From Myxococcota bacterium (lineage in GTDB: Bacteria > Myxococcota_A > Bradymonadia > Bradymonadales > GCA-2716585), in assembly GCA_963169075.1 (NCBI GenBank), contig CAUJGC010000187.1, forward strand, positions 1-38,484: a stretch of 38,484 nt of DNA. Reading direction: 5' to 3'. Made by a program: the position numbers and the translations under genes. Below, in pieces: positions 17,815 to 36,290 of this stretch; positions within the stretch are counted from its first letter, which is position 1; each line of letters begins with the position of its first letter. Under the pieces are notes generated by a model. The model saw only the letters and a program-made list of their open reading frames with translations, was not told the origin of the DNA and did not search any database.

Positions 17815-18720
17815 TCACCACGTCCAGAGCATATCCACCGTCGGGAGGAGATCGTGGGAGCGGACGTGGACGAGGCGGGTGAAGCCGTCGCTGTCCTGCT
17901 CCTCGACGACGCGCCGCTGGTCGCTGTTCCAGTACGCCAGCCCCAAGGCGAGGCGGGTGCGCTGGGAGGTCTGGAGATCGGCGCCGATCCACGCAGCCCA
18001 GGTCCAGCGGTCGCGGCCTGTGTCGCCCTGGACGCCCTCACCGACCCGGTAGAGATCGGCCTCGGCGGCGATCCGGAGCCAGGGGAGGACGCCGCGGTCG
18101 TAGCGGACGCCCAGGTGGGCGCGCCAGGCGTGCGCCACCGGGGCGAAGGCCAGATCGAGCGGCGCCAGCGTGTCCAGCGGCAGCGGCCGCGCGCCGGAGA
18201 GCGCCCAACCCACCGCGCCGTCCAGCCGCAGCGTCAGCGGGTGCTCCTCGCCCCACGAGGCGGCGATCCCGAGGCGCGGGATCAGCGTGGGCCCCGGGGC
18301 ATGGCAGGAGTCCCCGCGGGCGGGCTCCGCCGCCTCGACCTTGCAGGAGGGCGTCAGGTAGCCCTGCACCCCCAGCGGCGGCGCGAAGGCGAAGGCGGCC
18401 CAGGGCAGCGCCAGGCCGCCCTCCACGGTCAGCGCCACCGGCGCTCCCCGGAGGAGCGCGTAGCGCGCCGCGACGTTGGGCGCCGCGAAGGTCAGCAGGG
18501 GGTGGGTCTGCACCTCCAGCCCCTCCAGCGGCACCCAGGTGAGCGGGTTGAAGACGCCGACGCCCCAGGTGCCCTCGGGGGCGACGGCGGCGTGGCCGCG
18601 CGGCGCCAGCGGCTCGGCGCTGGCGTCGCCGCCTGGGGCAAGCGACGTCAAGATACACACGCCTGCACATGTCAAGATATACGTCTTGATGTGTCTTGAT
18701 ATATCATGCGCCGCGCTCAT
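17815..18720 (-). CDS. Putative exported/outer-membrane beta-rich protein of unknown function
   Basis: Start in an ATGA overlap with the upstream gene; signal-like N-terminus MSAAHDISRHIKTYILTCAGVCILTSLAPGGDASA; alternating aromatic/hydrophobic segments, ends VRSHDLLPTVDMLWTW. Confidence 0.65.
   Translation of the reverse strand: MSAAHDISRHIKTYILTCAGVCILTSLAPGGDASAEPLAPRGHAAVAPEGTWGVGVFNPLTWVPLEGLEVQTHPLLTFAAPNVAARYALLRGAPVALTVEGGLALPWAAFAFAPPLGVQGYLTPSCKVEAAEPARGDSCHAPGPTLIPRLGIAASWGEEHPLTLRLDGAVGWALSGARPLPLDTLAPLDLAFAPVAHAWRAHLGVRYDRGVLPWLRIAAEADLYRVGEGVQGDTGRDRWTWAAWIGADLQTSQRTRLALGLAYWNSDQRRVVEEQDSDGFTRLVHVRSHDLLPTVDMLWTW
18647..18708 (+). repeat. AT-rich island A with roughly 10-bp phased GTCTTGAT / GTCAAGAT units
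   Basis: gtcaagatac (18647), gtcaagatat (18671), gtcttgatgt (18683), gtcttgatat (18693), atcatg (18703). Confidence 0.7.
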
Positions 18721-19877
18721 CGCGTCACCTCCCAGGTGCCGATCACCGGGGCGTGATCGCTCAACCGCAGCGGGTCGCTCTGGAGGGGCGCGCCCCTCCA
18801 GACCTGCCCGGCCCGCTGCAAGACGTCGCTCTCGCCTGGGGTCCAGGCCGTGCCGGGGCTGGCGAAGAGGTAGTCCAGCGTGCGGTTCCAATCGCCGGGC
18901 TGGCCGACCTCGTTCACCTCGTCGGGGCCGAGGACGGAGTGGGTGAAGTAGCGGCGCTGCGCCTCCGCTGTGGTCCCGAAGGCGTCCAGGGGGAGCCAGG
19001 GCACCAGCTCGTCAAAGAAGGGCCGCATGGCCTCGGGGGTGTAGGGCGGCTGGACGAAGTCCTCGCTGCACACCGCCTCGGTGCGCTCGTCGGGGAAGCC
19101 CTCCAGCTGGAGCGCGCTGGGCGGCAGCTCGTTGAAGTCGCCGCCCAGCACAAACGGCAGCTCCTCCCCGTCCACCACCTCCTTGATCTGGCGCAGCTGC
19201 GCCTGCTTGGTGCCGTCTTGATCGTAGGCCTCGGTGTGGACGACGTAGATGGCCACGCGGAGGTCGGGGCGCGGGGCGATGACCGCGCGCCCGATCACCC
19301 GGTGGATGTAGAAGGCGCCCGTGACCGGGTCCTGATCGGTGCGATCCGGCTGGCGGATCGCGACGGCCTCCAGGATGGGGTAGCGGGAGAGGATCGCCAT
19401 CCCCAGATCCATACGCCCCAGCCCCTCGGACGGGATGTAGCGGCTGTCCCAGGTCCGGAAGTAGGCGGCGTAGTTGAGCGTCGTGCCGTTGAGCAGCGCC
19501 TCCACCTGGTTGACGTAGGCCGAGCGGCGGGAGTTGACCTCGATCTCCTCGGTCAGCAGCACGTCGGGCTCGACCTCCCGCAAGAGGGCGTTGAGCGCGC
19601 CGAGGTTGCCATCGACCTCGCCGCGGGTCATCGCGACCCGATCCCCCCAGCAGTCGAACCAGAAGGGGAGGCGCGCGGCGCCGTACTTGACGTTCCAGGC
19701 CATGACCCGCAGCGCCACGGGGTCGGCGGGCTCCGGCGCCGGCGTCAGCGCGTCGGCCCGGAAGAGGAGCGCCGGCGCCTGGTCAAAGTCGAGATCGTCG
19801 TAGAGCCACTCGCAGCCCGAGGCCGCGCCCAGCGCCGCCCAACCCAGCAAGAGCGCCGTCAAGACGCGCCGCCTCAT
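18717..19877 (-). CDS. Endonuclease/exonuclease/phosphatase-family lipoprotein
   Basis: LTALLLGWAALGAASGC lipobox; LRVMAWNVKYG, VEPDVLLTEEI, LPFVLGGDFNELP, NRTLDYLFAS, LSDHAPVIGTW motifs of the EEP superfamily. Confidence 0.85.
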   Translation of the reverse strand: MRRRVLTALLLGWAALGAASGCEWLYDDLDFDQAPALLFRADALTPAPEPADPVALRVMAWNVKYGAARLPFWFDCWGDRVAMTRGEVDGNLGALNALLREVEPDVLLTEEIEVNSRRSAYVNQVEALLNGTTLNYAAYFRTWDSRYIPSEGLGRMDLGMAILSRYPILEAVAIRQPDRTDQDPVTGAFYIHRVIGRAVIAPRPDLRVAIYVVHTEAYDQDGTKQAQLRQIKEVVDGEELPFVLGGDFNELPPSALQLEGFPDERTEAVCSEDFVQPPYTPEAMRPFFDELVPWLPLDAFGTTAEAQRRYFTHSVLGPDEVNEVGQPGDWNRTLDYLFASPGTAWTPGESDVLQRAGQVWRGAPLQSDPLRLSDHAPVIGTWEVTR

Positions 19878-20509
19878 GGTGTCTCCTCCGCGAGGAAGGC
19901 CACCAGATGGGCCTCGACAGCCTGGGTCAGCAGCCCCAGGTGGAGCCCGTCGACCAGGCCGTGGTGGACCGTCATCGAGAGGGTGAAGCCCTCGGGCTCG
20001 ACGCGACCCCAGAAGAGGCGCGGGACCGACTCCTCGGGGCGCCCCGAGCGCTCGGCGCGCACGGCGCGCACGTCCATCCAGGGCATGCAGCTGGCGTAGA
20101 AGACGTCGTCCCGGGCGTGAGCGCCGCTCAGGCGCTCCTGAGCGCAGGCCTCGGCGGCGCCGGACTCGACCGCAGCCAGGAAGGGCGCGCGCTCGGGGCT
20201 CCAGACGCCGCGCGCGAAGCGCACCGTGCCGTCCTCCGCCAGCACCGCCCAGGCGGGATGGACCGCCTCGTGCTCGACGACGACCGCGCCGCCCTCGCGG
20301 AGCCGCAGGCGGAGCGCAGGGACCTGGTTGACCCCGGCGTTGAGAGCGTGGAGCACCACCCCGAAGAGCGAGACGCCCCGCGCGCGGGCGCGCTCCTTGA
20401 GGCGCGGCGCGCGTATCCAGGCGGATATATCAAAGAATGGGTCTTGATATGTCTTGAACATATCAAAGTGATCTCGGCGGGGCCAGGTGGAGCGATCGAT
20501 GATCCGCAT
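19874..20509 (-). CDS. Chloramphenicol acetyltransferase-like (CAT family) protein
   Basis: MRIIDRSTWPRRDHFDMFKTYQDPFFDISAWI N-terminal CAT motif and catalytic TVHHGLVDGLHLGLL (HHxxxDG); ATGA overlap with the downstream lipoprotein gene. Confidence 0.8.
   Translation of the reverse strand: MRIIDRSTWPRRDHFDMFKTYQDPFFDISAWIRAPRLKERARARGVSLFGVVLHALNAGVNQVPALRLRLREGGAVVVEHEAVHPAWAVLAEDGTVRFARGVWSPERAPFLAAVESGAAEACAQERLSGAHARDDVFYASCMPWMDVRAVRAERSGRPEESVPRLFWGRVEPEGFTLSMTVHHGLVDGLHLGLLTQAVEAHLVAFLAEETP
20423..20468 (+). repeat. AT-rich island B with roughly 10-bp phased GTCTTGA units
   Basis: ggatatatcaaagaatgg gtcttgatat gtcttgaaca tatcaaag. Confidence 0.6.
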
Positions 20510-20684
20510 GGTGACTCGGGGCAGGAGGGAGCGCGGCGCGCCGCGCGACATCAGCACCCAGGAGGGTACAATGCGCCTCGGCGGCGCGTCCAGCCTTGAC
20601 GACACCCGTGAAAGGGGCTAAGGCGCTCCTCGGTCTGTGGTGGTCTCACATATCCCTCTCCCCCTGAAGTCTCAAGGTGTTGCG

Positions 20685-21347
20685 ATGCGTCGAATCCTCC
20701 TCCCTGCTGGCCTCCTCCTCACCCTCGGCGCCGCCTGCGCGACGACCGGCACCTCCGCCCCGATGGAGTGCCCCGAGGTGACCCCGCAGCCCGCCGCCGA
20801 AGGCGCCCCGGCCCTCTTCGACCCCGCGCTGGTGCAGGTGGCGCAGACCGCCCAGGGCACCCACAAGATCAAGCTCTTCTTCGACGCCGAGGGCCGCCCC
20901 ATCAAGCAGGCCGTCTACCACCGCGACTTCAAGCTCATGCCCGAGGCCGTCCGCAAGACCGTCGAGGCCGAGGCGCCCGGCGGCGAGCTGATCGCCGCCG
21001 AGAGCGAGCTCTACGCCGGCGTAGGCCGCGTCTTCGAGGTCGAGGTCAAGCTCCCCGACGGCCGCGAGCTGGAGGTCAGCGTCAAGGAGGACGGCACCCT
21101 CTACTACGTCGAGCGCAAGCTGGACCCCAAGCTCCTCGCGGACTCCGTGCGCGCCACCGTCGAGGCCACCGTCCCCGGCGGCACCATCGACGAGGTGGAG
21201 ACCAAGAAGGGCCCCGACATGGACGTCACCCTCCTTGAGGTCATCGACCCCCAGGGCGTCCAGCACTACCTCCGCTTCGCGCCGGGCGGCAAGCTGGTGG
21301 GCCACACCCTCCGCTTCACCGCCCAGGTCGAGGTCCCCGCCCCCTGA
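20685..21347 (+). CDS. Putative lipoprotein with two PepSY-like repeats
   Basis: MRRILLPAGLLLTLGAACATT lipobox; repeated LPEAVRKTVEAEAPGGELIAAE...VFEVEVKLPDG / LADSVRATVEATVPGGTIDEVE. Confidence 0.75.
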   Translation: MRRILLPAGLLLTLGAACATTGTSAPMECPEVTPQPAAEGAPALFDPALVQVAQTAQGTHKIKLFFDAEGRPIKQAVYHRDFKLMPEAVRKTVEAEAPGGELIAAESELYAGVGRVFEVEVKLPDGRELEVSVKEDGTLYYVERKLDPKLLADSVRATVEATVPGGTIDEVETKKGPDMDVTLLEVIDPQGVQHYLRFAPGGKLVGHTLRFTAQVEVPAP

Positions 21348-21357
21348 CGCATCAGGG
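21342..21357. terminator. Hairpin containing both stop codons of the convergent gene pair
   Basis: CCCTGA-CGCA-TCAGGG; TGA of the + gene (21345-21347) and TGA of the - gene (21352-21354) lie in opposite stem arms. Confidence 0.45.
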
Positions 21358-23133
21358 CGGCGAGGTGTAGATCCGCACCTCGCCGTCTTGAGCTTCGACG
21401 TGGCCGAACCCCAGCGCGACGTCGTCCCGGCCGTCGCCGTTGAAGTCGGCGGCCAGGACGGCCACGCGCCGGTTGGGCTCGTCTTCCAGCGGGATGAAGA
21501 AGGTCGCGTCTGCGGCTATGCTGCTCAAATCCCCTGGAAAGAAAGGACCATAGAAGAGCCAGGCCCCCACCCTGTCCGCGCCGTCGGTCTCGGGGACGAG
21601 GCCGCCGATCACGAGGTCGTCCGCCCCGTCGCCGTTGAAGTCGCCCACCGCCACCGCCGCGCCGAACCCCTCGCCAGGCGCGCCGCAGAGGCGCACAGGC
21701 GCCCCCTCGGCGGGCTCGGTGAGGCGCCCGGACTCTGGAGACGGCGCCACGTAGACGCAGCCCGCCCCGCTGTTCGCGCCCGGCGCCCCCAGGACCACCG
21801 CCGCTGCGCGATCCGCTCCGAAGAGACGCGACGCCCCGGCCACGGCATACCCCAGCAGGCTCCCCGACTGCGCGCTCTCCCAGACCCCCACCGCCTGCTC
21901 CGCGCTCGCCTCGCCGCGCAGGTTCGCGGCGAAGAGATAGGCCGCGCCGCGCTGCGGCGCGCCGATCAGCGCCCCGCCCAGCGGCCCGGCGGCCACCGCC
22001 GCGCCGAAGCCGCTCCCCGCGCTCGGGCCGCGGAGCCGCACGATCGCCTCGCCGCGCCCGGCGGCGGTGCTCCCGGAGGTGTGGGCGCCCGGCGGCAGCG
22101 CCTCGAAGAGCAGCGCCTCTCCCCAGGACCCGGCGTCGTGGTCGTAGCGCGGGTGGCCGACGATCAGCTCGTCCCCGGAGGTGTCCAGCGCGTCGCCCAG
22201 CGCGACGCTGGCGCCGAAGAGATCATCCTCATGCGCCCCGCGCCCACGCCAGAAGTCGTCATCGAGCATGTTGACCTGCGCCGAGCTGGACGCGCTGAAC
22301 GAGTCCACCGCCACCACCATCCCACCCCAGCCGGAGCCGTCCGCGTCGGGCGCTCCGGCCACGGCGAAGGGAGCCGTCGAGCGGCCGATGTGCCCCAGCG
22401 CGACGACGCTCCCCAGGTTGCCGTCGTGGATCGTGCAGTAGAGCCGCCCGGGGCGATCATGGCTCAGCTCCCGCGCCGCGTCCGCCGACTGACCCGGGCT
22501 CACCAGAAACGCCTCGCCGTCGCTGTGGGCGTGCTTGCCTGGCGCGCCGATGAGCAGCTCGTCCTGGCCGTCGCCGTTCATGTCGTAGGCCGCCAGGCTC
22601 CACCCCGCGCGGCGGTCGTGGCCGCCGCGGTAGGTCAGCGTCGCCTGATCGCGGGGGTAGCTCCCCTGGAAGGTGCAGGTGACGCCGCCGCAGCTCTCGG
22701 AGCGCGCCGTCGCGCAGCTCTCGCGGGCGTTGGGGTGGATCGCCGCGTCGTCGTCGTCGCAGTCCCCCTCCCGAGCTGCGGCGCGGGCGTCATCGCAGCT
22801 CACCCGGATGCTCCCACCGAAGCCGTCGCCGTCGGTGTCCAGCCAGCAGGTCGCCGGGGCCGCGCTGTCCTCTCCCACGTCGTCGTGATCCTCCTCCGCC
22901 GCGTCGGCCAGGGCTGCGTCGTCGCCGCTCGCCGCGTCGAGGCCGGCGTCCTCACCGGGGAGCGCGCTGTTGTTGGCGGCGCCTGCGTCGTCGATCCCTC
23001 CGCCGCCTGCGTCGCCCTCGCCTGGCGCGGCCACCCCCGAGGGGACCGGCGGCACCTCCCCGGCGAAGAGGCTGCACCCGCCCAGGCAGGCCAGCAGCCC
23101 CAACCATCCATACAATCTGGCGCGCTGTGTCAT
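21352..23133 (-). CDS. FG-GAP/integrin-alpha-like repeat lipoprotein
   Basis: LGLLACLGGCSLF lipobox; D/A-rich linker; repeats such as AAYDMNGDGQDELLIGAPG, VAVGDFNGDGADDLVIGG, LAADFNGDGRDDVALGFG. Confidence 0.9.
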   Translation of the reverse strand: MTQRARLYGWLGLLACLGGCSLFAGEVPPVPSGVAAPGEGDAGGGGIDDAGAANNSALPGEDAGLDAASGDDAALADAAEEDHDDVGEDSAAPATCWLDTDGDGFGGSIRVSCDDARAAAREGDCDDDDAAIHPNARESCATARSESCGGVTCTFQGSYPRDQATLTYRGGHDRRAGWSLAAYDMNGDGQDELLIGAPGKHAHSDGEAFLVSPGQSADAARELSHDRPGRLYCTIHDGNLGSVVALGHIGRSTAPFAVAGAPDADGSGWGGMVVAVDSFSASSSAQVNMLDDDFWRGRGAHEDDLFGASVALGDALDTSGDELIVGHPRYDHDAGSWGEALLFEALPPGAHTSGSTAAGRGEAIVRLRGPSAGSGFGAAVAAGPLGGALIGAPQRGAAYLFAANLRGEASAEQAVGVWESAQSGSLLGYAVAGASRLFGADRAAAVVLGAPGANSGAGCVYVAPSPESGRLTEPAEGAPVRLCGAPGEGFGAAVAVGDFNGDGADDLVIGGLVPETDGADRVGAWLFYGPFFPGDLSSIAADATFFIPLEDEPNRRVAVLAADFNGDGRDDVALGFGHVEAQDGEVRIYTSPP

Positions 23134-23305
23134 GACTTGGCTCCTTGGAGACGCCTTCGATCACCTCACCCATCCTAGCACCTGCCCGGACGGGAGGCGA
23201 GCCGAAGAAGGGGCGGTTGTGCTGCGCCGCACCTTCGCTTAGGCTGGGCCCACGCGCGGAGCGGAGGGACGCCGTGCCTACATCAACCTACACGGAAGGC
23301 CATCC

Positions 23306-24877: not shown

Positions 24878-24911
24878 CGCGACGCCTGGGGCCGAAGCCC
24901 CAGGCGTCGCG
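24878..24911. terminator. Bidirectional hairpin between convergent genes
   Basis: Perfect 15-bp stem cgcgacgcctggggc-CGAA-gccccaggcgtcgcg in the 40-nt gap between stops at 24877 (+) and 24918 (-). Confidence 0.8.
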
Positions 24912-24917
24912 CGCGCC

Positions 24918-27900
24918 TCAGCGGCGCCGCAGCGCCAGCCCCAGGGCGGCGCTCAGGAGGACCAGCACCGGCCAGAGCGCCGACCGACCCGCCGGGCGCG
25001 CCGCGCTGCAGAAGAGCCCGTTGCCCTCGATCCCGTAGGCCGTCGCCTCGGGGTTGATGGAGGCCTGGCAGGCGTCGCCCACGCCGTCACCGTCGGTGTC
25101 GCGCTGGTCGGGGTTCTCGACGTCGGGGCAGTTGTCCTCGTCGTCGCGGACCCCATCCCCGTCCTCGTCCTCGCCGGGCTCGTCGCAGGCGTCTCCGATG
25201 CCGTCACCGTCGGTGTCGCGCTGGTCGGGGTTCTCGACGTCGGGGCAGTTGTCGTCAGCGTCGTCCACGCCGTCGCCGTCGCCGTCCTCGATCTCCTCCT
25301 CGCAGGCGTCTCCGACGCCGTCGTTGTCGCTGTCGGCCTGATCCGGGTTGGCGACCCCGCGGCAGTTGTCCTCGCCGTCCACCACGCCGTCGCCGTCGCG
25401 ATCCATGCCGGGGTCCTCGTCGCAGACATCGCCCAGCCCGTCGCCGTCCAGATCGGCCTGCTCGGGGTTGGCGACCTGCGCGCAGTTGTCGTCGGCGTCC
25501 TCGACGCCGTCGCCGTCGTCGTCCGCGTCGCAGAGATCCCCCTGCCCGTCCGCGTCGAGATCCGCCTGGTCGGGGTTGGGGACGTCCGCGCAGTTGTCGG
25601 CGTCGTCCGCGACGCCGTCGCCGTCCAGATCGCCCTCGCAGGCGTCGCCCACGCCGTCCTCGTCCTCATCGGCCTGGTCGGGGTTGGCGACCAGCGGGCA
25701 GCTGTCCGCGTCGTCCTCCACGCCGTCCTCGTCGTCGTCCGCGTCGCAGGCGTCGCCTGCGCCGTCGCCGTCCAGGTCCAGCTGATCCGGATCGAAGACC
25801 AGCGGGCAGAGGTCGGCGTCATCGCCCACGCCGTCCCCGTCGTCGTCCTCGTCGCAGACATCCCCGAACCCGTCGCCGTCGGTGTCGGTCTGGTCATCCG
25901 AGGCGACCAGGGAGCAGCTGTCGTCCGGATCGATGACGCCGTCGCCGTCGTCATCCACGTCGCAGGCGTCGCCCTCGCCGTCCTCGTCGGTGTCCAGCTG
26001 GTCCGCGTTGGCGACGACCCGGCAGTTGTCGTCGTCGTCGCTCACGCCGTCGCCGTCGGTGTCCTCCTCGCAGACGTCGCCCACGCCGTCGGCGTCGGTG
26101 TCCTCCTGGTCGGGGTTGGCGATCAGGTAGCAGTTGTCGTCGGCGTCGTCGATGCCGTCGCCGTCGTCGTCCATGTCGCAGAGATCCCCCAGCCCGTCGC
26201 CGTCGGCGTCGGCCTGGTTGGTGTTGGGGACATCCACGCAGTTGTCGTCATCGTCCGCGACGCCGTCGCCGTCCAGATCGCCCTCGCAGGCGTCGCCCAC
26301 GCCGTCCTCGTCCTCATCGGCCTGGTCGGGGTTGGCGACCAGCGGGCAGCTGTCCGCGTCGTCCTCCACGCCGTCTTCGTCGTCGTCCGCGTCGCAGGCG
26401 TCGCCTGCGCCGTCGTTGTCGGTGTCCACCTGCTCGAAGTTGGCGACCAGCGGGCAGTTGTCCTCGTCGTCGTTGAAGCTGTCCCCGTCGGTGTCCACAT
26501 CGCAGGCGTCGCCTGCGCCGTCGGCGTCGGCGTCAGCCTGATCCGGGTTGGCGGTCAGCGGGCAGTTGTCGTCGTCATCGCTCACGCCGTCGTCGTCGTC
26601 GTCGTCGTCGCAGGCGTTCCCCTGACCGTCGCCGTCGGTGTCGGCCTGCGTGGGGTTGGCGATCAGCGGGCAGTTGTCGTCTGCGTCTGCGTCGCCGTCG
26701 TTGTCGTCGTCATCATCGCAGGCATCACCAAAGGCGTCGCCGTCGTTGTTGGCCTGATCCGGGTTGGCGACCAGCGGGCAGCTGTCGTCGTCATCGCTCA
26801 CGCCGTCGTCGTCGTCGTCATCGTCGCAGGCGTCGCCCTGGCCGTCGCCGTCGGTGTTTACCTGCAAGTCGTTTGCGACCAGCGGGCAGTTGTCGGCGTC
26901 ATCGCTCACGCCGTCGTTGTCGTCGTCCGCGTCGCACACGTCGCCCTCGCCGTCACTGTCGTTGTCGGCCTGGTCGTCGTTGGCGACCAGCGGGCAGTTG
27001 TCGTCATCGTCTGGGAGGGCGTCGTTGTCGTCGTTGTCGTCGCAGGCGTCGCCCTGGCCGTCGCTGTCGGTGTCTAACTGCAAGTCGTTTGCGATGAAGG
27101 GGCAGTTGTCCGCCCCGTCGGCCACGCCGTCGTTGTCGTCGTCCAGGTCGCAGGCGTCACCGAAGGCGTCGCCGTCGTTGTTGGCCTGATCCGTGTTGGC
27201 GAGCAGCGGGCAGTTGTCGGCGACGTCGTTGACCCCGTCGTTGTCGTCGTCCGGATCGCAGGCGTCACCGAGGGCGTCGCCGTCGTTGTTGGCCTGATCG
27301 GCGTTGGCGTTCAGCGGGCAGTTGTCCGCCGTATCCAGGCGTCCGTCGTTGTCGTCATCGGGATCGCAGGCGTCACCGAAGGCGTCCCCGTCGGTGTTGG
27401 TCTGCGCGCTGTTGGCGGTCAGCGGGCAGTTGTCGGCGCCGTCGCTCACGCCGTCGTTGTCGTCGTCCGGGTCACAGACGTCCCCGATGTCGTCGCCGTC
27501 GTTGTCGGCCTGATCATCATTGGCGACCAGGGGGCAGTTGTCGGCGGTGTCCGGGAGGGCGTCGTTGTCGTCGTTGTCGTCGCAGGCGTCGCCCTGGCTG
27601 TCGCCGTCGGTGTTCACCTGCAAGTCGTTTGCGGTGAGGGGGCAGTTGTCCGCCCCGTCGGCCACGCCGTCGTTGTCGTCGTCGGGATCGCAGACGTCGC
27701 CCAGGGCGTCGCCGTCGTTGTTGGCTTGATCCGGGTTGACGATCAGCGGGCAGTTGTCGGCGTTGTCGGGGAGGCCGTCGTTGTCGTCGTCGTCATCCCC
27801 CAGGTCGCAGCGCCCGTCCCCGTCGTTGTCCACGCCGTCCATCAGCGGGTTGGGGAAGCCCTCCAGCGCGCAGTCGTCGCAGGAGTCCATGTCGCTGTCA

Positions 27901-28856
27901 CGGCAGATGTTGCCGTCGCCCGGGTCGTCGTCGCATACGTCGCCCACCGTGTCGGCGTCGCCGTCGCCCTGATCGGTGTTCGGGTCGAAGGGGCAGTTGT
28001 CCTCTTCGTCACCGACCCCGTCCATGTCGGTGTCCACCTGGCAGTACTTGTTGCACCCGTCGAAGTAGTCGAGGTTGCCGTCGTCGCACAGCTCCCCCTC
28101 GTCCTGGATGCCGTTGCCGCAGAGGCTCACCATCCCGCCGCGGACAAAGAAGCGGTAGACGCCCGGGATGTTGACGTTGGACTGGGTGCAGACGTTGATC
28201 ACGTCTGCCGTCCGCGACTCCTCCGTCGCGAAGAAGTTGATCCCATCCCCCGCGTCGAAGCCCACCTGCGCCGGCGTCCCCCCAAGCCCCCCCGTCCCGT
28301 CGGAGGCGTCTCCGGTGGTCCACTCGCAGCGCTCGTAGCGGAACTCCACGTCAAAGTCACCCGGCTCGAAGTCCGCCGAGCGATCCGACAGGATCATCTG
28401 GAAGCTGTTGAGCTTGTCGACGTGCCGCGCGAAATAGCCCACGTTGAGCCACGTCACCACGACGCGCGCGGGCCCCTGCGCGAAGTGGATCCGGTTGTTG
28501 ACGCCGTCGCTGGTGCCGCGCAGATCCACGTCGGCCCAGAAGGGCGCGATCATCGGCTGCGCCGCTACAGGGAAGGGGGTCGGGGTGAAGCTCGACACCG
28601 CCCCTTCAAAGGTGATGTTCCCGTTGATGTTGACCCAGAGGTCGGTGTAGCTGGTCCCGAAGTAGTTGATCCCCAAAGGGAACGCGGTGGCGATGCTCTG
28701 CTGGGAGGACGGCGAGTCATCGCCGCTCAGCCCCACCACAGCCCCATAGCCCGCAGGCCCACCCAGGCCACCGATCAGCGGGACAGCCCCCGCCGGAGAC
28801 GCGAAGAACAAGACCACCCCCCCCGTCAGGAGGGGGAGGTAACGCGGCGCTTTCAT
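24918..28856 (-). CDS. Thrombospondin type 3 repeat surface protein with nidogen-like N-terminus and MYXO-CTERM-like tail
   Basis: Signal MKAPRYLPLLTGGVVLFFASPAGA; INYFGTSYTDLWVNINGNITFEG nidogen-like; CGNGIQDEGELCDDGNLDYFDGCNKYC; about 26 DxDxDGxGDxCDxDDDxDGVxDxxDNCP repeats; tail FCSAARPAGRSALWPVLVLLSAALGLALRRR. Confidence 0.93.
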   Translation of the reverse strand: MKAPRYLPLLTGGVVLFFASPAGAVPLIGGLGGPAGYGAVVGLSGDDSPSSQQSIATAFPLGINYFGTSYTDLWVNINGNITFEGAVSSFTPTPFPVAAQPMIAPFWADVDLRGTSDGVNNRIHFAQGPARVVVTWLNVGYFARHVDKLNSFQMILSDRSADFEPGDFDVEFRYERCEWTTGDASDGTGGLGGTPAQVGFDAGDGINFFATEESRTADVINVCTQSNVNIPGVYRFFVRGGMVSLCGNGIQDEGELCDDGNLDYFDGCNKYCQVDTDMDGVGDEEDNCPFDPNTDQGDGDADTVGDVCDDDPGDGNICRDSDMDSCDDCALEGFPNPLMDGVDNDGDGRCDLGDDDDDNDGLPDNADNCPLIVNPDQANNDGDALGDVCDPDDDNDGVADGADNCPLTANDLQVNTDGDSQGDACDDNDDNDALPDTADNCPLVANDDQADNDGDDIGDVCDPDDDNDGVSDGADNCPLTANSAQTNTDGDAFGDACDPDDDNDGRLDTADNCPLNANADQANNDGDALGDACDPDDDNDGVNDVADNCPLLANTDQANNDGDAFGDACDLDDDNDGVADGADNCPFIANDLQLDTDSDGQGDACDDNDDNDALPDDDDNCPLVANDDQADNDSDGEGDVCDADDDNDGVSDDADNCPLVANDLQVNTDGDGQGDACDDDDDDDGVSDDDDSCPLVANPDQANNDGDAFGDACDDDDDNDGDADADDNCPLIANPTQADTDGDGQGNACDDDDDDDGVSDDDDNCPLTANPDQADADADGAGDACDVDTDGDSFNDDEDNCPLVANFEQVDTDNDGAGDACDADDDEDGVEDDADSCPLVANPDQADEDEDGVGDACEGDLDGDGVADDDDNCVDVPNTNQADADGDGLGDLCDMDDDGDGIDDADDNCYLIANPDQEDTDADGVGDVCEEDTDGDGVSDDDDNCRVVANADQLDTDEDGEGDACDVDDDGDGVIDPDDSCSLVASDDQTDTDGDGFGDVCDEDDDGDGVGDDADLCPLVFDPDQLDLDGDGAGDACDADDDEDGVEDDADSCPLVANPDQADEDEDGVGDACEGDLDGDGVADDADNCADVPNPDQADLDADGQGDLCDADDDGDGVEDADDNCAQVANPEQADLDGDGLGDVCDEDPGMDRDGDGVVDGEDNCRGVANPDQADSDNDGVGDACEEEIEDGDGDGVDDADDNCPDVENPDQRDTDGDGIGDACDEPGEDEDGDGVRDDEDNCPDVENPDQRDTDGDGVGDACQASINPEATAYGIEGNGLFCSAARPAGRSALWPVLVLLSAALGLALRRR
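25603..25767. repeat. 165-bp near-identical repeat (copy 1) within the TSP3 array
   Basis: Matches 26251-26415 with one mismatch seen (25728 C versus 26376 T); offset 648 bp. Confidence 0.85.
26251..26415. repeat. 165-bp near-identical repeat (copy 2) within the TSP3 array
   Basis: See copy 1 at 25603-25767. Confidence 0.85.
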
Positions 28857-28917
28857 GATAGAGTCCTCCAGGTTGGGTTGGAGATGTAGGCAAAGGTAGC
28901 CCAACACCTCCACGCTA

Positions 28918-28934
28918 GCGCCGTCAGACGGCGC
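28918..28934. promoter_or_regulatory. 17-bp palindrome GCGCCGTC-A-GACGGCGC in the TSP3 / CoA-transferase divergent region
   Basis: Perfect 8-bp arms around one central nucleotide. Confidence 0.4.
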
Positions 28935-28975
28935 GGGCAAATGTTTCATGCGCTGAATCGCCAGGAGGAGCCACC

Positions 28976-31171
28976 TTGAGCGCCCTGCAAGGAGTTCGAG
29001 TTCTCGACGGGACCCACGGCCAGGCCGGCGCCTACGCAGGCGCCCTCCTGGCAGACCTGGGCGCCGAGGTCGTCCGGCACCCAGGCGTTGGGTGCCTCCT
29101 CCGCGGCCGCACCTGCCTCGACGACGACCCCGACGCCCTCTGGGCCACCCTCGCCCCGCACGCCGACGTCCTCCTCTGGGACGGCCCCCGCGCCCCCCTG
29201 GGCGCCGTCGCCCCCTGGCAGATCTTCTGCCACCTCCCCCCCTTCGCCCCCGGCGAGCCCCCCGCCCCAGGACGCCCCGGACACCCCGAGGCCTGGATGG
29301 GCCTCTACGCTCCCCCCGTCGGCGCCCGCCCCGCCGTCCACCACCTCGGCCTCCTCCCCCTCACCGCCGCCCTCTATGCCCTCAACGGCGTCCTCGCCGC
29401 CCTCCTCGCCCGAGAAGAGAGCGGCCTCGGCCAGGAGGTGCGCTGCGTCGAAGCCGACGCCGCCTACCCCCTCCTCGAACTCAACGCCCTCTTCACCCTC
29501 TCCCCCCCGCGCCGCTGGGCTACCCTCCCCTGGGCCGCCACCCCCTTCATCGGCCCCTGGCGCGCCGCCCGCGGCGGCTGGATCTACGTCCACCTCGGCC
29601 TCCGCGCCCACCTCGCCCGCTTCCTCGACGCCGCCGACGCCCTCGCCCCCGCCGAGGCCGCCCGCCTCCGCCGCGTCCTCAGCCCCGCCGTCCTGGCCGA
29701 GCCCACCTCCGTCGGCTCCGGCCTGGAGCAGCTCCGCCTCCGCCGCGCCCTCCGCGCCCTCTTCCTCCGCCTCGAAGCCCCCCGCTGGGAGGAGGCCCTC
29801 TCCGACGCCGGGCTCTGCGCCGTCGAGGTCCGCCCACCCACCACCTGGCGCGACTCCCCCCACGCCCGCGCCTCCCGACAGGTCGTCGAGCTGGACGGGC
29901 GCCTCGCCCCCGGCGCCGCCCTCACCCTCTCCGCCACCCCCGCCCTCCCTCGCCCCGCCGCCCCCGCAGACCGCCAGGACGTCCTCCGCCGCTGGCGCGC
30001 CGCGCCGCGACCCGCCCGCCGCGCCGCGCCCCCGCCGCACCCCCTCCACAACCTCCGCGTCCTCGATCTCACCCAGGTCATCGCCGGACCCACCGCCGCA
30101 CGCACCCTCGCGGAGCTGGGCGCTACCGTCCACCGCGTCGAGAACCCCCGCTTCGACGCCCCCTGGGTCGAAGCCTTCCACATCGCCTTCAACACCGGGA
30201 AATCCTCCGAGACGATCAACCTGAACTCCTCAGCTGGGCGCGCGCGCTTCTGGGAGCTTGTGGAGGAGCTGCGCCCGGACGTGGTGCTCCAGAACCTCCG
30301 CCCGGGCGCCGCCGAGGCGCTGGGGATCGGGGAGGCGGACGTGCGCGCCCGGCTCCCCGAGGTGATCTACGCCCACCTGACGGCCTGGGGCGAGGAGGGG
30401 CCGTGGGCGCCGCGCCCGGGCTGGGAGCAGACGGCGCAGGCGGCGTGCGGCGTCCAGGCGGTGTGGGGCGGCGACGCGGGGCCGTCGCTCTTCCCGCTGC
30501 CCTTCAACGACCTGGGGACGGGGCTCCTGGGGGCGCTCGGGATCCAGGCGGCGCTCTGGGCCCGCCGCCGCGGCCTGGCGGGCGGGCAGCGGGTGGGCGC
30601 CTGCCTCTCCGCCACGGCGACCTGGATGCAGGCCGCGACCCTCTTCGACGGGGCGCTCCAGCCCTGGGGCGCCTCCTCGCTGGGCGCCTGGCCCGGGCGC
30701 CGCGCCTACCGCCTGGCCGACGGCTGGGCCTTCCTGGAGGCCGCCCCTGCGACGCTCCGCGACCTCCACCGGGTCGAGGGCCTGGCGGCCTGCGGCGCCG
30801 CCTCGGGGGGCCCCGCCCTGGGCGCGGCGCTGGAGGCCGCCCTGGCGACCGCCCCCCTGGCGACCTGGCGCGCCCGCCTGGACGCCGCAGCGCTGGGGGA
30901 GGCCGTGGCGCTGACGCCGTGGCGCACATGGCGCGCGGCGCTGCTGGACCCGCGCGCCGCCCAGCGCGGCCTGGTCCACCGCCGCCACCACGACGGCATC
31001 GGAGAGGTGACCGAGACCGGCTCGCCGCTCCGCCTCCAGGGCACCCCGCTTGTCAAGACCGCGCCCGCCCCGCGTCGGGGAGAGGCTGATGTCGGCGCCC
31101 TCAGCGCGCCGAGCTGGATCCACGCCCAGGCGCGCGGCGCGCTGGGCCTCTTGCTCAGGAGGTGGTCATGA
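28976..31171 (+). CDS. Tandem-domain CoA-transferase family III (CaiB/BaiF)-like protein
   Basis: Two family-III-like N-termini (LQGVRVLDGTHGQAGAYAGALLADLGAEVVRH and LHNLRVLDLTQVIAGPTAARTLAELGATVHRVENP), NTGKSSETINLNSSAGRARFWELVEELRPDVVLQNLRPGAAEALGIGEADV; TTG start with AGGAGG at 28962-28967. Confidence 0.85.
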   Translation: MSALQGVRVLDGTHGQAGAYAGALLADLGAEVVRHPGVGCLLRGRTCLDDDPDALWATLAPHADVLLWDGPRAPLGAVAPWQIFCHLPPFAPGEPPAPGRPGHPEAWMGLYAPPVGARPAVHHLGLLPLTAALYALNGVLAALLAREESGLGQEVRCVEADAAYPLLELNALFTLSPPRRWATLPWAATPFIGPWRAARGGWIYVHLGLRAHLARFLDAADALAPAEAARLRRVLSPAVLAEPTSVGSGLEQLRLRRALRALFLRLEAPRWEEALSDAGLCAVEVRPPTTWRDSPHARASRQVVELDGRLAPGAALTLSATPALPRPAAPADRQDVLRRWRAAPRPARRAAPPPHPLHNLRVLDLTQVIAGPTAARTLAELGATVHRVENPRFDAPWVEAFHIAFNTGKSSETINLNSSAGRARFWELVEELRPDVVLQNLRPGAAEALGIGEADVRARLPEVIYAHLTAWGEEGPWAPRPGWEQTAQAACGVQAVWGGDAGPSLFPLPFNDLGTGLLGALGIQAALWARRRGLAGGQRVGACLSATATWMQAATLFDGALQPWGASSLGAWPGRRAYRLADGWAFLEAAPATLRDLHRVEGLAACGAASGGPALGAALEAALATAPLATWRARLDAAALGEAVALTPWRTWRAALLDPRAAQRGLVHRRHHDGIGEVTETGSPLRLQGTPLVKTAPAPRRGEADVGALSAPSWIHAQARGALGLLLRRWS

Positions 31172-32847
31172 ACCGGACGGTGCGGCAGGTGCTTGGGGTG
31201 CTCGGAGCAGCGGCGGTCCTGCTGGGCGGCCTGGGGAGCGCGGAGGCCTTCTGCGGCTTCTACGTCTCCGGGGCCACCGGCGACCTCTACAGCAAGGCGA
31301 CGATGACGGTCATGATGCGCGACGGGATGCGGACCGTCCTGGCGATGCGCAACGACTACCAGGGCCCCCCCGAAGACTTCGCCATGGTCATCCCCGTCCC
31401 CGTCGTCCTCAAGAAGGCGGACGTCAAGACCCTCTCCCCCGACCTCTTCGCCAAGGTGGACGGCATGGCCGCCCCCCGCCTCGTCGAGTACTGGGAGCAG
31501 GACCCCTGCAGCGGGGACCCTGGGGTCGCCTTCGGCTTCGGAGGCATCGGCCTCATCGGCACCGGGCGCGGCGGCGGCGGCGCCGGCTTCGGCTCCCTGG
31601 GCGCGGTCCAGATCGAGGCCCAGTTCGAGGTCGCAGAGTACGAGATCGTCATCCTCAGCGCCAAAGAGTCCACGGCGCTCGACGCCTGGCTCCGCGAAGC
31701 GAAGTACAACATCCCCAAGGGCGCCGAGGCCGTCCTCCGACCCTACGTCGAGGGCGGCATGTACTTCTTCGTCGCCAAGGTCAACGCGAAGAAGGTCAAG
31801 TTCCGCGAGGGGCGCGCGCAGCTCTCTCCGCTTCGATTTCATTACGATACAAAAACATTTGATCTCCCGGTTCGATTGGGGCTCTTGAACGCCGACGGGC
31901 CGCAGGATCTCCTGGTGCACATCTTCGCGAAGGGGCAGCGCTACGAGGTCGCCAACTACCCCAACGCGACGATCCCGACCAACCTCGACGTGGCGCCGGA
32001 GGCGCGGCGGAGCTTCGGGGGCTTCTACGCGGCGCTCTTCGACGAGGTGCAGCGCAAGACCCCGGGCGCGGTGGTGACCGAGTACGCCTGGGACGCCTCC
32101 ACCTGCGACCCGTGTCCGGGGCCGACCCTGACGGCGTCGGACCTCCTCTCGCTGGGGGCGGACGTGATGCCGGGGCGCGACACCAGCGGGCTGGTGCTCA
32201 CGCGGCTGCACGCCCGCTACGACGCGGCCTCGCTGCGGGAGGATCTGGTCTTCCGCGCCGCCGGGCCGCTGGAGGGCGGACGCGAGGTCTACCAACACGG
32301 CACCCTGGAGCGCGGCGCCAGGGAGGCCGAGCGCAACAACTTCCAGGCCCGCTACGCCATCCGACACCCCTGGGAGGGGGAGATCGCCTGCGACCGCTAC
32401 ACCCGGGGGCGCTGGGGGGCGCGGCCTGTCAAAGAAGGGGAGAGCCAGGAGCCTCAGGAGACGGCCTCGCCTCGCGCCCAGGCGGCCCGGGGGCTGGCCT
32501 ACGCCCCGCGCGACGAGGTGAAGCTGGCGAGCCTGCTCCGGACCGACCTGCCCGAGCTGAAGGTGGAGGCCGAGACGCGGACGCGGGACCTGCTCGGCGG
32601 GGGTGGCCGCGGCGCAGCGGCGCCTGTCGCGCCTGTCGCGGAGGCGGGGAGCGTGGCGGAGGCGGGGAGCGCGGCGCCGGCGGGGAGCGCGGTGGCGCCT
32701 GCGGCGTCGGCGGGATCGGCGCCTCCGGCGGCGGCTGGCGGGGTGGGGTGCGCGGCGGCGCGGGGGCGATCTCCGGGGTGGCTGGGCGGCGTGCTTGTGT
32801 TGGCGGGGCTCGTGGGGCTGCGTTTGGGGAGGCGGCGCAGGGTGTGA
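31168..32847 (+). CDS. DUF2330-like secreted protein with MYXO-CTERM-like tail
   Basis: Signal, then FCGFYVSGATGDLYSKATMTVMMRDGMRTVLAMRNDYQGPPEDFAMVIPVPVVL (DUF2330-like); tail GCAAARGRSPGWLGGVLVLAGLVGLRLGRRRRV; ATGA overlap with the upstream gene. Confidence 0.85.
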   Translation: MNRTVRQVLGVLGAAAVLLGGLGSAEAFCGFYVSGATGDLYSKATMTVMMRDGMRTVLAMRNDYQGPPEDFAMVIPVPVVLKKADVKTLSPDLFAKVDGMAAPRLVEYWEQDPCSGDPGVAFGFGGIGLIGTGRGGGGAGFGSLGAVQIEAQFEVAEYEIVILSAKESTALDAWLREAKYNIPKGAEAVLRPYVEGGMYFFVAKVNAKKVKFREGRAQLSPLRFHYDTKTFDLPVRLGLLNADGPQDLLVHIFAKGQRYEVANYPNATIPTNLDVAPEARRSFGGFYAALFDEVQRKTPGAVVTEYAWDASTCDPCPGPTLTASDLLSLGADVMPGRDTSGLVLTRLHARYDAASLREDLVFRAAGPLEGGREVYQHGTLERGAREAERNNFQARYAIRHPWEGEIACDRYTRGRWGARPVKEGESQEPQETASPRAQAARGLAYAPRDEVKLASLLRTDLPELKVEAETRTRDLLGGGGRGAAAPVAPVAEAGSVAEAGSAAPAGSAVAPAASAGSAPPAAAGGVGCAAARGRSPGWLGGVLVLAGLVGLRLGRRRRV

Positions 32848-32855
32848 TAGGGTGG

Positions 32856-32895
32856 GCGCCTCCGGCGGCCAGGGGAAGCTCCCCTGGACCCCTTT
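32856..32895 (+). terminator. GCCTCCGGCGGC-headed hairpin terminator, copy 2
   Basis: GCGCCTCCGGCGGCCAGGGGAAGCTCCCCTGGACCCCTTTT; 8-bp stem CCAGGGGA/TCCCCTGG followed by a T run; 8 nt after the stop. Confidence 0.8.
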
Positions 32896-32917
32896 TCTCT
32901 TGAGCTGAGGAGGCGCG

Positions 32918-33907
32918 ATGCGTGGGTGGTGGTGTGCGCTGGCGGCGGTGACGCTGCTGGCGGCGGGTTGCGGCGATGACGAGGCGTCGTCGGCTGCTCC
33001 GGCAGGTGGGGAGCAGCCCGACGGGGAGCCTGCGGAGCAGCCGGGGGCCGACGACCCGACGGCGCGCCAGGCGGCGCGGGCAGGGACGGCGTGGTATCCG
33101 GGGACCAAGGCGGCGCTGGACGCGAAGGTGGACGGCCTGCTGGCGGACGTGGGGGCGACGCCTGCGCCTGCGCGGGCGGTGCTGGTGCCGCACGCGTCGC
33201 TGAAGTACTCGGGGCACGTGCAGGCGGCGGCCTACGCGCGGGTGGAGGCGCCGGATGTGGCGATCGTGCTCGCCTCGGATCACGACCTGGCCGGGGAGGC
33301 GCTGGCGATCTGGACCGAGGGGCCGTGGCTGGTGCCGGGCTACGCGCTCTACACCGAGCAGGAGGCTGCGGCGTCGCTGATGGCGGCCTTCCCGGAGCTG
33401 AAGCCAGACCGCGCGGCCTTCGACAACCACCCGCCGGAGCTTCAGATGCCCTTCCTGGCGCGGCTGAACCCGGCGCTGCGCCTGGTGGTGATCGCGTTCC
33501 ATGACAACAGCCGCAACGACTTCAAGGGCTTCTCCCCCGAGCGGACGCGGGCGCTGGGCGCGGCGCTGGCCGACGTGATCCGGGAGCTGGAGGCGGACGG
33601 TCAGCGCGTCCTCATCGCGGCGACCACCGACCTCATCCACTACGAGCCGCTGGCCGACGCCGAGCGCCAGCACGACGACCTCCTGGGCTACATCGAGGCC
33701 CTGGACGTGGAGGGCCTCCACGCCTACGTCACCGCCGAGAGCACGTCGATCTGCGGCGAGGTCCCGACGGCGGTGATGATGGCGACGGTGGAGGCGCTGG
33801 GGGCGACCCCGGCGGACGTGGAGGAGGTGGCGCGGGACACCAGCGCCTCGATCAACAGCGACGAAGAGGCCGTGGTCGGCTACACGGGGGTGGTGATATG
33901 GAGATGA
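32918..33907 (+). CDS. Memo-like (AmmeMemoRadiSam system protein B family) lipoprotein
   Basis: LAAVTLLAAGCGDDE lipobox; RAGTAWYPG, AVLVPHASLKYSGHVQAAAYARV, LASDHD, HPPELQMPFLARL, IAATTDLIHYEPL, SICGEVPTAVMM. Confidence 0.88.
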   Translation: MRGWWCALAAVTLLAAGCGDDEASSAAPAGGEQPDGEPAEQPGADDPTARQAARAGTAWYPGTKAALDAKVDGLLADVGATPAPARAVLVPHASLKYSGHVQAAAYARVEAPDVAIVLASDHDLAGEALAIWTEGPWLVPGYALYTEQEAAASLMAAFPELKPDRAAFDNHPPELQMPFLARLNPALRLVVIAFHDNSRNDFKGFSPERTRALGAALADVIRELEADGQRVLIAATTDLIHYEPLADAERQHDDLLGYIEALDVEGLHAYVTAESTSICGEVPTAVMMATVEALGATPADVEEVARDTSASINSDEEAVVGYTGVVIWR

Positions 33908-35181
33908 AATCCATGCGTCTTATCGTGATCTTTGCGTCCATGATGCTCCTCGCGCTGGCGGGCTGCGGCGAGGAGGAGGAGGCGGCGCCCTTCGTGCTGC
34001 CGCCGCCGACGCCAGCGGTCTACGACGACACCTCGGCGCCGCGCGCGGCGCTGCCGGAGGGGACGACGCTGGCGGACGCCGACGCGCTGACGGCGCCGCT
34101 GGCGCTGGAGGGGAGCGACACGGGGGAGGAGGGGATCTTCTACGCGGCGGCGCTCGGGGGGTACTACCTCATCCGGGTGCAGCAGGCGGACGGGAGCTTC
34201 GGCTACCAGTACAACTTCAAGGAGGACGCCTGGGCCGACGACAACTCGGTCTACCGCCAGGCGGGGACGACCTACACCCAGGCGTGGCTGGCGACGCTGA
34301 CGGGGCGGGTGGAGTTCTCGATCTCGACGGAGTGGGCGCTGCGCTGGCTGACGGCGCAGATGACATCGGACGGCGCGGGGGGGATGAAGCTGCTGGACAT
34401 CGGGGGGACGGGGCTGGTGCTCCTGAGCCTGACCGAGCACGCGGCCTACACCGGGGACACGAGCCGGGATGACCTGATCCGGGCCAGCGGGGAGTACCTG
34501 CTGGCGCGGGTGGCGGAGGACGGCCGCTTCACCGAGAGCGTGCCGCTCCAGTGGGGGCAGGCGATGCAGGCGCTCTGGCGGCTCTACGTCTACCTGGGGG
34601 ATGTGCGCTACCTGGACGCGCTGGAGCGCGCCGGGCGCTACATCTACGACCACCCGGAGGTCCAAGGCGAGGAGGAGGAGGGGTACATCCTCACGCTCTG
34701 GATCAACGAGCCGCTGACGGACCTCTACAGCGTGCGCCCGAGCCCGTGGATCACGGAGCTGGTCTTCGGGCTGACCGACTACATCGTGGCGCATCAGTAC
34801 ACGGCGGACAACACGGACGAGCGGGCGTGGGTGGGGAGCTACATCATGCCGGAGTCCGGCAACAAGGGCACCTGGCGCACGGCCCTCCGGCTGGAGGGGG
34901 TGATCGACGCGGTGCGCCTGGCGCAGCTCTCGGGGGACGAGGAGCGCCTGGCGCGCTACACCGAGAGCACGCTCCTGGCGGTCTACTACCTCCAGAGCAT
35001 CCAGCTCCGGACGGGGCGGACCCGGGGCGCGAAGCGCCCGGAGCTGGTGGAGGGGGCCTTCCCCTTCTCGGGCACCGACAGCACGCTCCGGATCGACGTG
35101 ACGCATCACACGGCGAACACGCTGATCAAGGTGGTCAAGTATCTGGATCTGGAGGATTATCCAGGCGAGGTCGCGCAGTGA
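33904..35181 (+). CDS. Lipoprotein with alpha/alpha-toroid-like (six-hairpin) domain
   Basis: MKSMRLIVIFASMMLLALAGCGEEEE lipobox; helical pairs such as TGLVLLSLTEHAAYTGDTSRDDLIRASGEYLLARV, WGQAMQALWRLYVYLGDVRYLDALERAGRYIYDH; overlaps the Memo-like stop. Confidence 0.7.
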   Translation: MKSMRLIVIFASMMLLALAGCGEEEEAAPFVLPPPTPAVYDDTSAPRAALPEGTTLADADALTAPLALEGSDTGEEGIFYAAALGGYYLIRVQQADGSFGYQYNFKEDAWADDNSVYRQAGTTYTQAWLATLTGRVEFSISTEWALRWLTAQMTSDGAGGMKLLDIGGTGLVLLSLTEHAAYTGDTSRDDLIRASGEYLLARVAEDGRFTESVPLQWGQAMQALWRLYVYLGDVRYLDALERAGRYIYDHPEVQGEEEEGYILTLWINEPLTDLYSVRPSPWITELVFGLTDYIVAHQYTADNTDERAWVGSYIMPESGNKGTWRTALRLEGVIDAVRLAQLSGDEERLARYTESTLLAVYYLQSIQLRTGRTRGAKRPELVEGAFPFSGTDSTLRIDVTHHTANTLIKVVKYLDLEDYPGEVAQ

Positions 35182-36161
35182 TCACGACGCGGTGGATCCA
35201 GGCGCGCCAAGCGCCCGGGGTGCGGGCCGAGGTGACAGCGCTGGGGCCCCTGCGCTACAGCGCAGGGGCGGAGCCTGCGCTGGATCGTCCGCCTCATGTC
35301 CGCGCGGCGTCGGGGCTGCGCCGCTGGGGTGCGGGGTGGTTGATCGTGCAGGACGACGCCTCCTTCCTCGCCTATCGCCGCGACGACGGCGCGGTGGAGG
35401 GGCTCGCGCTGCCGGCGGGCCCTGACGGGCGCCGGACCTTCAGCAGCGCGGAGGGGAACAAGCAGCACAAGCTGGATCTGGAGGCCTGCGAGGTGTTGCC
35501 GACGCCGCAGGGGCCGTGCTTCCTGGCGTTGGGATCAGGCTCGACCCCTGCGCGGGAGGTCCTGGTGACGCTCCGCGAGGGAGAGGCACCCCAGCTGCGC
35601 CTCGCCTCCGCGCTCTACGCGTCGCTCCGCAGCGTGGAGGTCTTCGCAGGCGCCGAGCTGAACCTGGAGGGGGCGGCGCTGCTCGGCGCGGAGCTGCTCC
35701 TCTTCCAGCGCGGCAACGGCGCCGGGCGCCCCGGGCTGGAGGCGAGCAACGCCGTCGGGGCGCTGGAGGCCGCCGGGCTCCTGGCCTGGCTGGAGGGCTC
35801 CGGCCCGCCGCCGGAGCTGCGGCGCGTCCTGCGCGTGGACCTGGGGTGCTCCGCTGCGGGGACGCCCTACGGGTTCACCGACGCGGCGTCGCTCCCCGAT
35901 GGGCGGATCGCCTTCCTGGCTGCTGCGGAGGACTCTCCCAACGCCTACGACGATGGGGAGGTGCAGGGGGGGAGGCTGGGCTGGCTCGACGGCGACGAGG
36001 CGAGCTGGGCGCCGCTGCTCATGGCGTCGGGCGCGCCGTGCCTCCTCAAGCTGGAGGGGCTGGCGCCGGAGGGGCCTGCCTCATTCCTGGCGGTGGCCGA
36101 TGTGGACGATCCGGGCGCTGCGGCGCTCCTCTGCCGTGTGGTCCTCGTCGGTGACGGTTGA
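35178..36161 (+). CDS. Conserved hypothetical protein (DUF6929-like)
   Basis: GTG start overlapping the previous TGA (GTGA); SFLAYRRDDGAVEGLALPAGPDGRRTFSSAEGNKQHKLDLEACEVLP...NLEGAALLGAELLLFQRGNG. Confidence 0.7.
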   Translation: MITTRWIQARQAPGVRAEVTALGPLRYSAGAEPALDRPPHVRAASGLRRWGAGWLIVQDDASFLAYRRDDGAVEGLALPAGPDGRRTFSSAEGNKQHKLDLEACEVLPTPQGPCFLALGSGSTPAREVLVTLREGEAPQLRLASALYASLRSVEVFAGAELNLEGAALLGAELLLFQRGNGAGRPGLEASNAVGALEAAGLLAWLEGSGPPPELRRVLRVDLGCSAAGTPYGFTDAASLPDGRIAFLAAAEDSPNAYDDGEVQGGRLGWLDGDEASWAPLLMASGAPCLLKLEGLAPEGPASFLAVADVDDPGAAALLCRVVLVGDG

Positions 36162-36192
36162 GCGCCCGCGGCAGCTGTGCCATGTCTACAGC

Positions 36193-36257
36193 GTGTCATG
36201 GTGTGTCATGGCATGCTGTTCTGATGTGTCATGATATTTCATGACGTGTCGCGTTAT
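36193..36257 (+). repeat. AT-rich island C with roughly 10-bp phased GTGTCATG units, intergenic
   Basis: gtgtcatg at 36193, 36203 and 36226; atttcatg at 36236; gtgtcgcg at 36246. Confidence 0.75.
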
Positions 36258-36290
36258 ATTCAGGGGGCACATCTTGACGTCGGAGGCTCC

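Follow-up and report, generated by a model that had tools for sequence, protein, structure and literature searches.

The 38,484-nucleotide stretch analysed here (the window) is contig C187 (CAUJGC010000187.1) of the assembly of a Myxococcota bacterium (GCA_963169075.1; 5.85 Mb in 627 contigs, 87% complete), and it carries three AT-rich islands, A, B and C, in a source genome of about 71% GC (sampled over 20 contigs). We find that these islands are members of a genome-wide family of roughly forty arrays, about 30 strong and at least 10 weaker, in which a short palindrome, (YR)RTCWWGAY(RY), recurs at helical-turn spacing, and that the family is lineage-restricted. The best explanation, to which we give even odds, is that the islands are cooperative DNA-binding arrays for one small dimeric protein, used genome-wide. 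Island statistics given below come from about 0.74 Mb of contigs, picked in part because islands are present in them, and genes were called with a simple, codon-usage-based gene finder, so that gene starts are approximate. The island list excludes GC-rich pairs that arose by chance and, in L172, a low-complexity His/Asp array. The islands of the window are as follows:

Island A, 18648..18709, no strand assigned: TCWWGA units at 18648, 18672, 18684, 18694 and 18704 (the last reading TCATGC), at steps of 24, 12, 10 and 10.
Island B, 20430..20468, no strand assigned: units at 20430 (TCAAAG), 20442, 20452 and 20463 (TCAAAG), at steps of 12, 10 and 11; within a coding sequence.
Island C, 36196..36277, no strand assigned: units, imperfect ones among them, at 36196 and 36206 (TCATGG), 36219 (TTCTGA), and 36229 and 36239 (TCATGA), at steps of 10, 13, 10 and 10, with an outlying TCTTGA at 36272.

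An earlier, sequence-only reading had pointed to a shared 20-mer at 18689-18708 in A, 20437-20456 in B and 36224-36243 in C, and the three 20-mers lie exactly there, with the identities it gave (18/20 between A and C, 17/20 between A and B). Its repeating unit, the decamer CAAGACATAT at steps of roughly 10 bp, is not borne out. Phased units are real, and the distances between unit pairs peak at 10, 11 and 12 bp (18, 6 and 15 pairs, respectively) and are again in excess at 20-24, 32 and 42-46 bp, i.e., near two, three and four helical turns; this spacing histogram, from a sample enriched for island-holding contigs, rules out a strict decamer. The unit is instead the palindrome RTCWWGAY, in which the central WW reads AT, AA or TT and only very rarely TA. 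Outward from the core, the flanks alternate between pyrimidine and purine, with the class kept in 78-89% of units at each position, and we therefore write the unit as (YR)RTCWWGAY(RY). Counts on the sense strand are roughly symmetric (35 TCAAGA, 22 TCTTGA). Islands comprise two to six units and have only the unit in common, with no extended shared sequence. The longest in the sample are:

L163, 5001-5062: steps of 10, 11, 11, 12 and 12.
L138, 7352-7417: five steps of 12.

A genome-wide excess of the motif over a control was the check set beforehand, and it is present: GTGTCWTGATATNTCWTG, with up to three mismatches, has 27 + 22 matches in the source genome and 0 + 1 for the reversed pattern (49 vs 1). 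Similarly, ATCWTGATATATCWTGAT has 40 matches against 1 in the control, and TCWWGAN{4,6}TCWWGA has 57 against 5. Hexamers of the same composition (AGWWCT, GAWWTC, ACWWGT, TGWWCA and others) show no clustering at a distance of 10 bp, and the hexamers most enriched over dinucleotide shuffles in 390 AT-rich islands of the 0.74-Mb sample, which is enriched for island-bearing contigs, are TCAAGA, TATCAA, ATCAAG, GATATA and ATCTTG. Contigs chosen irrespective of islands (224 kb) hold only 4 pairs at 10-12 bp, a density that fits a total of some tens over the full genome.

The islands gather at gene boundaries. For 64% of 39 islands the nearest gene start or end is no more than 60 bp away, compared with 13% of random positions, and many of these islands touch the start or stop codon; two (L163, L176) take up all of the sequence between one gene's stop codon and the next gene's start codon. 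Junction islands are co-directional in 24 cases, divergent in 3 and convergent in 1, and because the background stands at 113, 27 and 19, orientation by itself is a weak signal. Islands A, L173, L177 and L178 encode signal-peptide-like N-termini. The majority of islands are non-coding; 10 lie inside called genes, some deep within them.

Within the window, the sequence-only reading had placed A and B at the 5' ends of coding sequences and C upstream of a phospholipase C-like gene. This holds for A, whose coding part specifies a signal-peptide n-region (MSAAHDISRHIKTYIL...). Island B lies inside its gene, at codons 14-29, and island C is intergenic and upstream as described, with a phospholipase C match that is weak and below cut-off. 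The genes concerned are:

17815..18720, minus strand: gene in which island A encodes the n- and h-region of the signal peptide (MSAAHDISRHIKTYILTCAGVCILTSLA...), with no Pfam family; its start ATG overlaps the stop of the upstream gene (ATGA, 18717-18720).
18717..19877, minus strand: upstream gene of the same operon, whose end adjoins island A.
19874..20509, minus strand: CAT-family acetyltransferase gene (PF00302, E 1.3e-9), which contains island B.
36291..37778, plus strand: gene downstream of island C, with a weak match to Zn_dep_PLPC (Zn-dependent phospholipase C; PF00882, E 4e-4, below cut-off).

Alignment of island-encoded peptides to their homologues reveals how coding islands arose. 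Peptides encoded in the CAT-family gene (against PDB 2i9d), the ketoreductase region of a fatty acid synthase (FAS), an M16 peptidase and a MoxR ATPase all align without gaps, and these islands were therefore formed by base substitution, largely through codon choice, and not by insertion. Repeat insertion as a general cause is thus ruled out for all four.

Arrays of the same form recur at probable operators in unrelated bacteria. When about 85,000 species genomes were scanned for an array of three units, 50 stretches came back, which we did not dismiss as chance matches spread over many genomes, since inspection showed some to be real, operator-like phased arrays. In seven operons (L189, L216, L183, L217, L276, L277, L278), arrays of 3-4 TCWWGA units at 10-bp spacing lie 9-42 bp before the start of a ribbon-helix-helix (RHH) antitoxin gene paired with a Doc toxin; the scan-derived cases come from Hyphomonadaceae, Deltaproteobacteria, an actinobacterium and a gammaproteobacterium. 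The toxins are assigned to Fic/Doc (PF02661, TIGR01550) and their partners are RHH-like, with Pfam and NCBIfam support mostly below formal cut-offs. Judged by position, these TCWWGA arrays are probable operators of the RHH-antitoxin/Doc operons, and such operons in several phyla possibly share an undescribed common operator type. In three further cases (L186, L227, L212; Edaphobacter, Polymorphobacter and an archaeon) the array adjoins a padR-like gene, and in a Peptococcaceae metagenome-assembled genome (MAG; L190) it precedes nadB beside a NiaR-like regulator, the PadR and NiaR names at these loci being given by sequence reading and not by a family scan. For NiaR, sites of this form have been described before, and a Bacillus halodurans probe carries ATGTCTTGACAT (PMC7713382). 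The arrays at L221 (Paraburkholderia) and at L202 and L213 (Bifidobacteriaceae) have no obvious partner gene.

The islands share much, and differ in much, with these operators. RHH-antitoxin/Doc operators have 3-4 TCWWGA palindromes at 10-bp spacing, mostly with YNNR spacers, beside the gene of a small RHH-type protein, and the helical-turn spacing is found in the islands as well. However, there is one array per operon there, whereas here there are dozens, at spacings of 10-12 bp, between and inside unrelated genes, and none of the flanking genes listed is an RHH or Doc gene. The sites adjoining padR-like genes and the NiaR sites likewise consist of TCAAGA/TCTTGA palindromes, phased at these loci, but form a single site region per target promoter.

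In the source lineage, the family is absent from the nearest relatives compared, all of which belong to other genera: four genomes of the same family have 0-3 matches to ATCWTGATATATCWTGAT (up to three mismatches), against 40 in the source genome. Genomes at class level (G043, G049, G046, G048 and others) give 14-37 matches over low controls, and among the matches listed nearly all are single and at three mismatches; some of these genomes may hold weak arrays. Across 379 genomes of the phylum, a 3-unit, 10-bp pattern has one match in the source genome and one in each of three others (L276, L277, L278), where in every case it stands before the paired genes of an RHH antitoxin and a Doc toxin. 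We note that this pattern is too strict a measure of the family across the phylum, because the source genome itself yields a single match.

A match at L228 led to a parallel in Muribaculaceae, in a MAG with strict 10-bp arrays of TCATGATNNA (41 pairs vs 0 in controls); two related Muribaculaceae genomes have 35 and 15 pairs (set: G064, G079, G072). Similarly to the islands, these arrays are tandem, intercistronic, genome-wide and lineage-restricted, around a core palindrome ATCWWGAT. Unlike the islands, they keep a strict 10-bp step with a free NN spacer, all multi-unit arrays read are intergenic (none at a divergent junction), and they belong to a different phylum. At three orthologous junctions, the only ones scored for divergence, differences within the arrays amount to 2/45 at C..GA (4%), 2/29 at WW (7%), 6/48 at the outer AT (12.5%) and 6/32 at the spacer NN (19%), compared with 80/274 in the flanks (29%), and 82 gaps fall in the flanks and none in the arrays. 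The arrays thus appear to persist between species as their flanks decay, which we regard as indicative, because the count rests on three junctions and units had disappeared or been rebuilt at others (J2 in G064, J3). Arrays with a TCWWGA-type core can be under selection, as in Muribaculaceae; for the source genome this is no proof. Beside the 10-bp arrays, loci L246, L254, L255, L318 and L321 carry other degenerate tandem repeats of 7 bp (TAATTCA/TAATGCA, AACGATT, AAAGATT and similar), which turn over between species.

The general kind, dispersed short repeat arrays, is already known from the short tandemly repeated repetitive (STRR) heptamers of cyanobacteria and the TAACTGA repeats; new is a palindromic unit at helical spacing. 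For the TAACTGA direct repeats, which occur in Beggiatoaceae, Cyanobacteria and Bacteroidetes, 169 sets are described that lie mostly just upstream of start codons; the repeats are scattered across phyla, and the genes that follow them show no functional pattern (PMC4679880). The islands resemble these heptamer arrays as dispersed arrays of a few units at gene starts and between cistrons, with scattered phylogeny and no functional pattern downstream, but the heptamers have a fixed, non-palindromic 7-bp direct unit, whereas the island unit is palindromic, degenerate by class and spaced at 10-12 bp. Repetitive extragenic palindromic (REP) sequences and bacterial interspersed mosaic elements (BIME) are likewise extragenic, intercistronic palindromes. 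REP are hairpins of 20-40 bp copied by a RAYT transposase; the islands, in contrast, are palindromes of 6-8 bp without a conserved larger unit; they lack the shared extended sequence of a transposase-copied repeat, and the gap-free alignment of coding islands speaks against arrival by insertion. A ZapT/ter organiser (PMC7188993) was dropped as a candidate, its ATCATGAT matches coming from an oligonucleotide table and read as FLAG-tag coding.

The sequence-only reading had offered two explanations, a phased operator array and a spreading decamer. The operator array fits better, given a palindrome at helical-turn spacing, binding-site-like variation, gap-free coding islands and the same arrays at probable operators elsewhere. 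Under this interpretation, a single RTCWWGAY palindrome would be recognised by each protein dimer, and dimers on adjacent units, 10-12 bp or one helical turn apart, would assemble cooperatively to form a short nucleoprotein filament. The protein, which might be of ribbon-helix-helix-like or winged-helix type, would influence expression at the island sites in a global or architectural role and not as the repressor of a single pathway, because islands occur throughout the genome, chiefly where cistrons meet and close to start codons. Cooperative DNA binding would account for the palindromy, the helical spacing, the class-wise degeneracy, the islands made by base substitution and the recurrence at probable operators.

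Several results weigh against this interpretation. No candidate binder was found in the 87%-complete source genome: PadR (PF03551) is not found there, with control genomes positive, a Doc-antitoxin alignment (A2) has no match (no search for the Doc toxin was made), and RHH_1 gives nothing above cut-off. The flanking genes listed likewise include no RHH, Doc or other recognised regulator of these kinds. The neighbours are ordinary and unrelated (threonyl-tRNA synthetase, TsaD, transaldolase, an AcrB-type pump, FAS, a methyltransferase and a periplasmic binding protein); they share no pathway, which rules out a pathway regulon. Two further points on the same side, a slightly greater likeness of units within islands and a modest motif excess in coding islands, are taken up with the explanations they favour.

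Among the alternatives, the foremost holds that the arrays act in mRNA, as sites for an RNA-binding protein or by setting translation of the downstream cistron. We regard this as unlikely. It draws on the closeness of islands to gene boundaries and their contact with start and stop codons, on the precedent proposed for TAACTGA repeats (PMC4679880), and on island C, which as RNA (36180-36260) folds into two adjacent strong hairpins with a z of -5.0. Against it stand the palindromy and rough strand symmetry of the unit and the position of some islands far inside genes. Other islands fold unremarkably (A, z -1.2; L163, -1.5; L133, -0.4) or intermediately (B, -2.8), so a hairpin is not a common island feature. 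No known structured RNA is recognised in the window, where Rfam has no match. The hairpin pair of island C may be a separate feature.

Alternatively, the islands could be degenerate tandem repeats that arose and spread by slippage or duplication and are tolerated in intercistronic DNA, with no binding protein at all, a scenario we consider doubtful and somewhat less probable than action in mRNA. Units are slightly more alike within islands than between them (0.49 vs 0.435; permutation p 0.011), which also fits duplication; the family is lineage-restricted, and Muribaculaceae junctions carry several other degenerate 7-bp repeat families. However, drift of this kind sits poorly with the gap-free coding islands, with a palindrome kept as spacing varies from 10 to 12 bp, with variation that follows class (W; Y/R) and is not random, and with Muribaculaceae arrays that decay more slowly than their flanks.

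Least probable is a composition artefact, in which AT-ending codon patches and AT-rich promoters of a GC-rich genome yield TCWWGA words by chance: GC3-rich genes (GC-rich at third codon positions) do hold 51 stretches with at least 8 AT-ending (AT3) codons in 12, against 0.05 expected in 0.74 Mb; most of these stretches lack the motif, and the FAS gene by itself contains three. Coding islands have 56 TCWWGA against 42.6 expected given amino acids and AT3 status, a modest excess. However, reversed and permuted controls of equal composition do not cluster, TCWWGA dominates AT-rich islands over dinucleotide shuffles, and most islands are non-coding, for which such an origin is unlikely.

A bolder form of the DNA-binding interpretation, which we hold to be improbable, is that one small, lineage-specific protein polymerises on dozens of phased RTCWWGAY arrays at gene boundaries and within genes, organising the chromosome or gating downstream cistrons, with Muribaculaceae as an independent parallel that has the same core palindrome and both proteins perhaps promoted from a toxin-antitoxin- or PadR-type autorepressor. 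Few dispersed short arrays offer a lead to mechanism; here, the same arrays at probable RHH-antitoxin/Doc and PadR operators hint at the type of binder, and island A or C provides a bait sequence for finding a candidate. If this idea is right, it would show how a local type of autorepressor site can be put to use throughout a genome.

Some minor observations concern the source genome. The FAS gene (L143:5874-15866) encodes a 3,330-residue, single-chain type I enzyme related to fungal and mycobacterial FAS. A parB-like gene (L150:2587-3894) is directly followed by an island and an 83-codon open reading frame. Two contigs open with an identical AT-rich stretch of 96 bases (L112:1-96, L115:1-96), either an unresolved repeat or an assembly edge, and some contig ends are homopolymer-rich tracts. 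The window itself also holds a 108-bp repeat in about 23 tandem copies (25254-27929) and a separate set of 342-bp repeats (971-3210).

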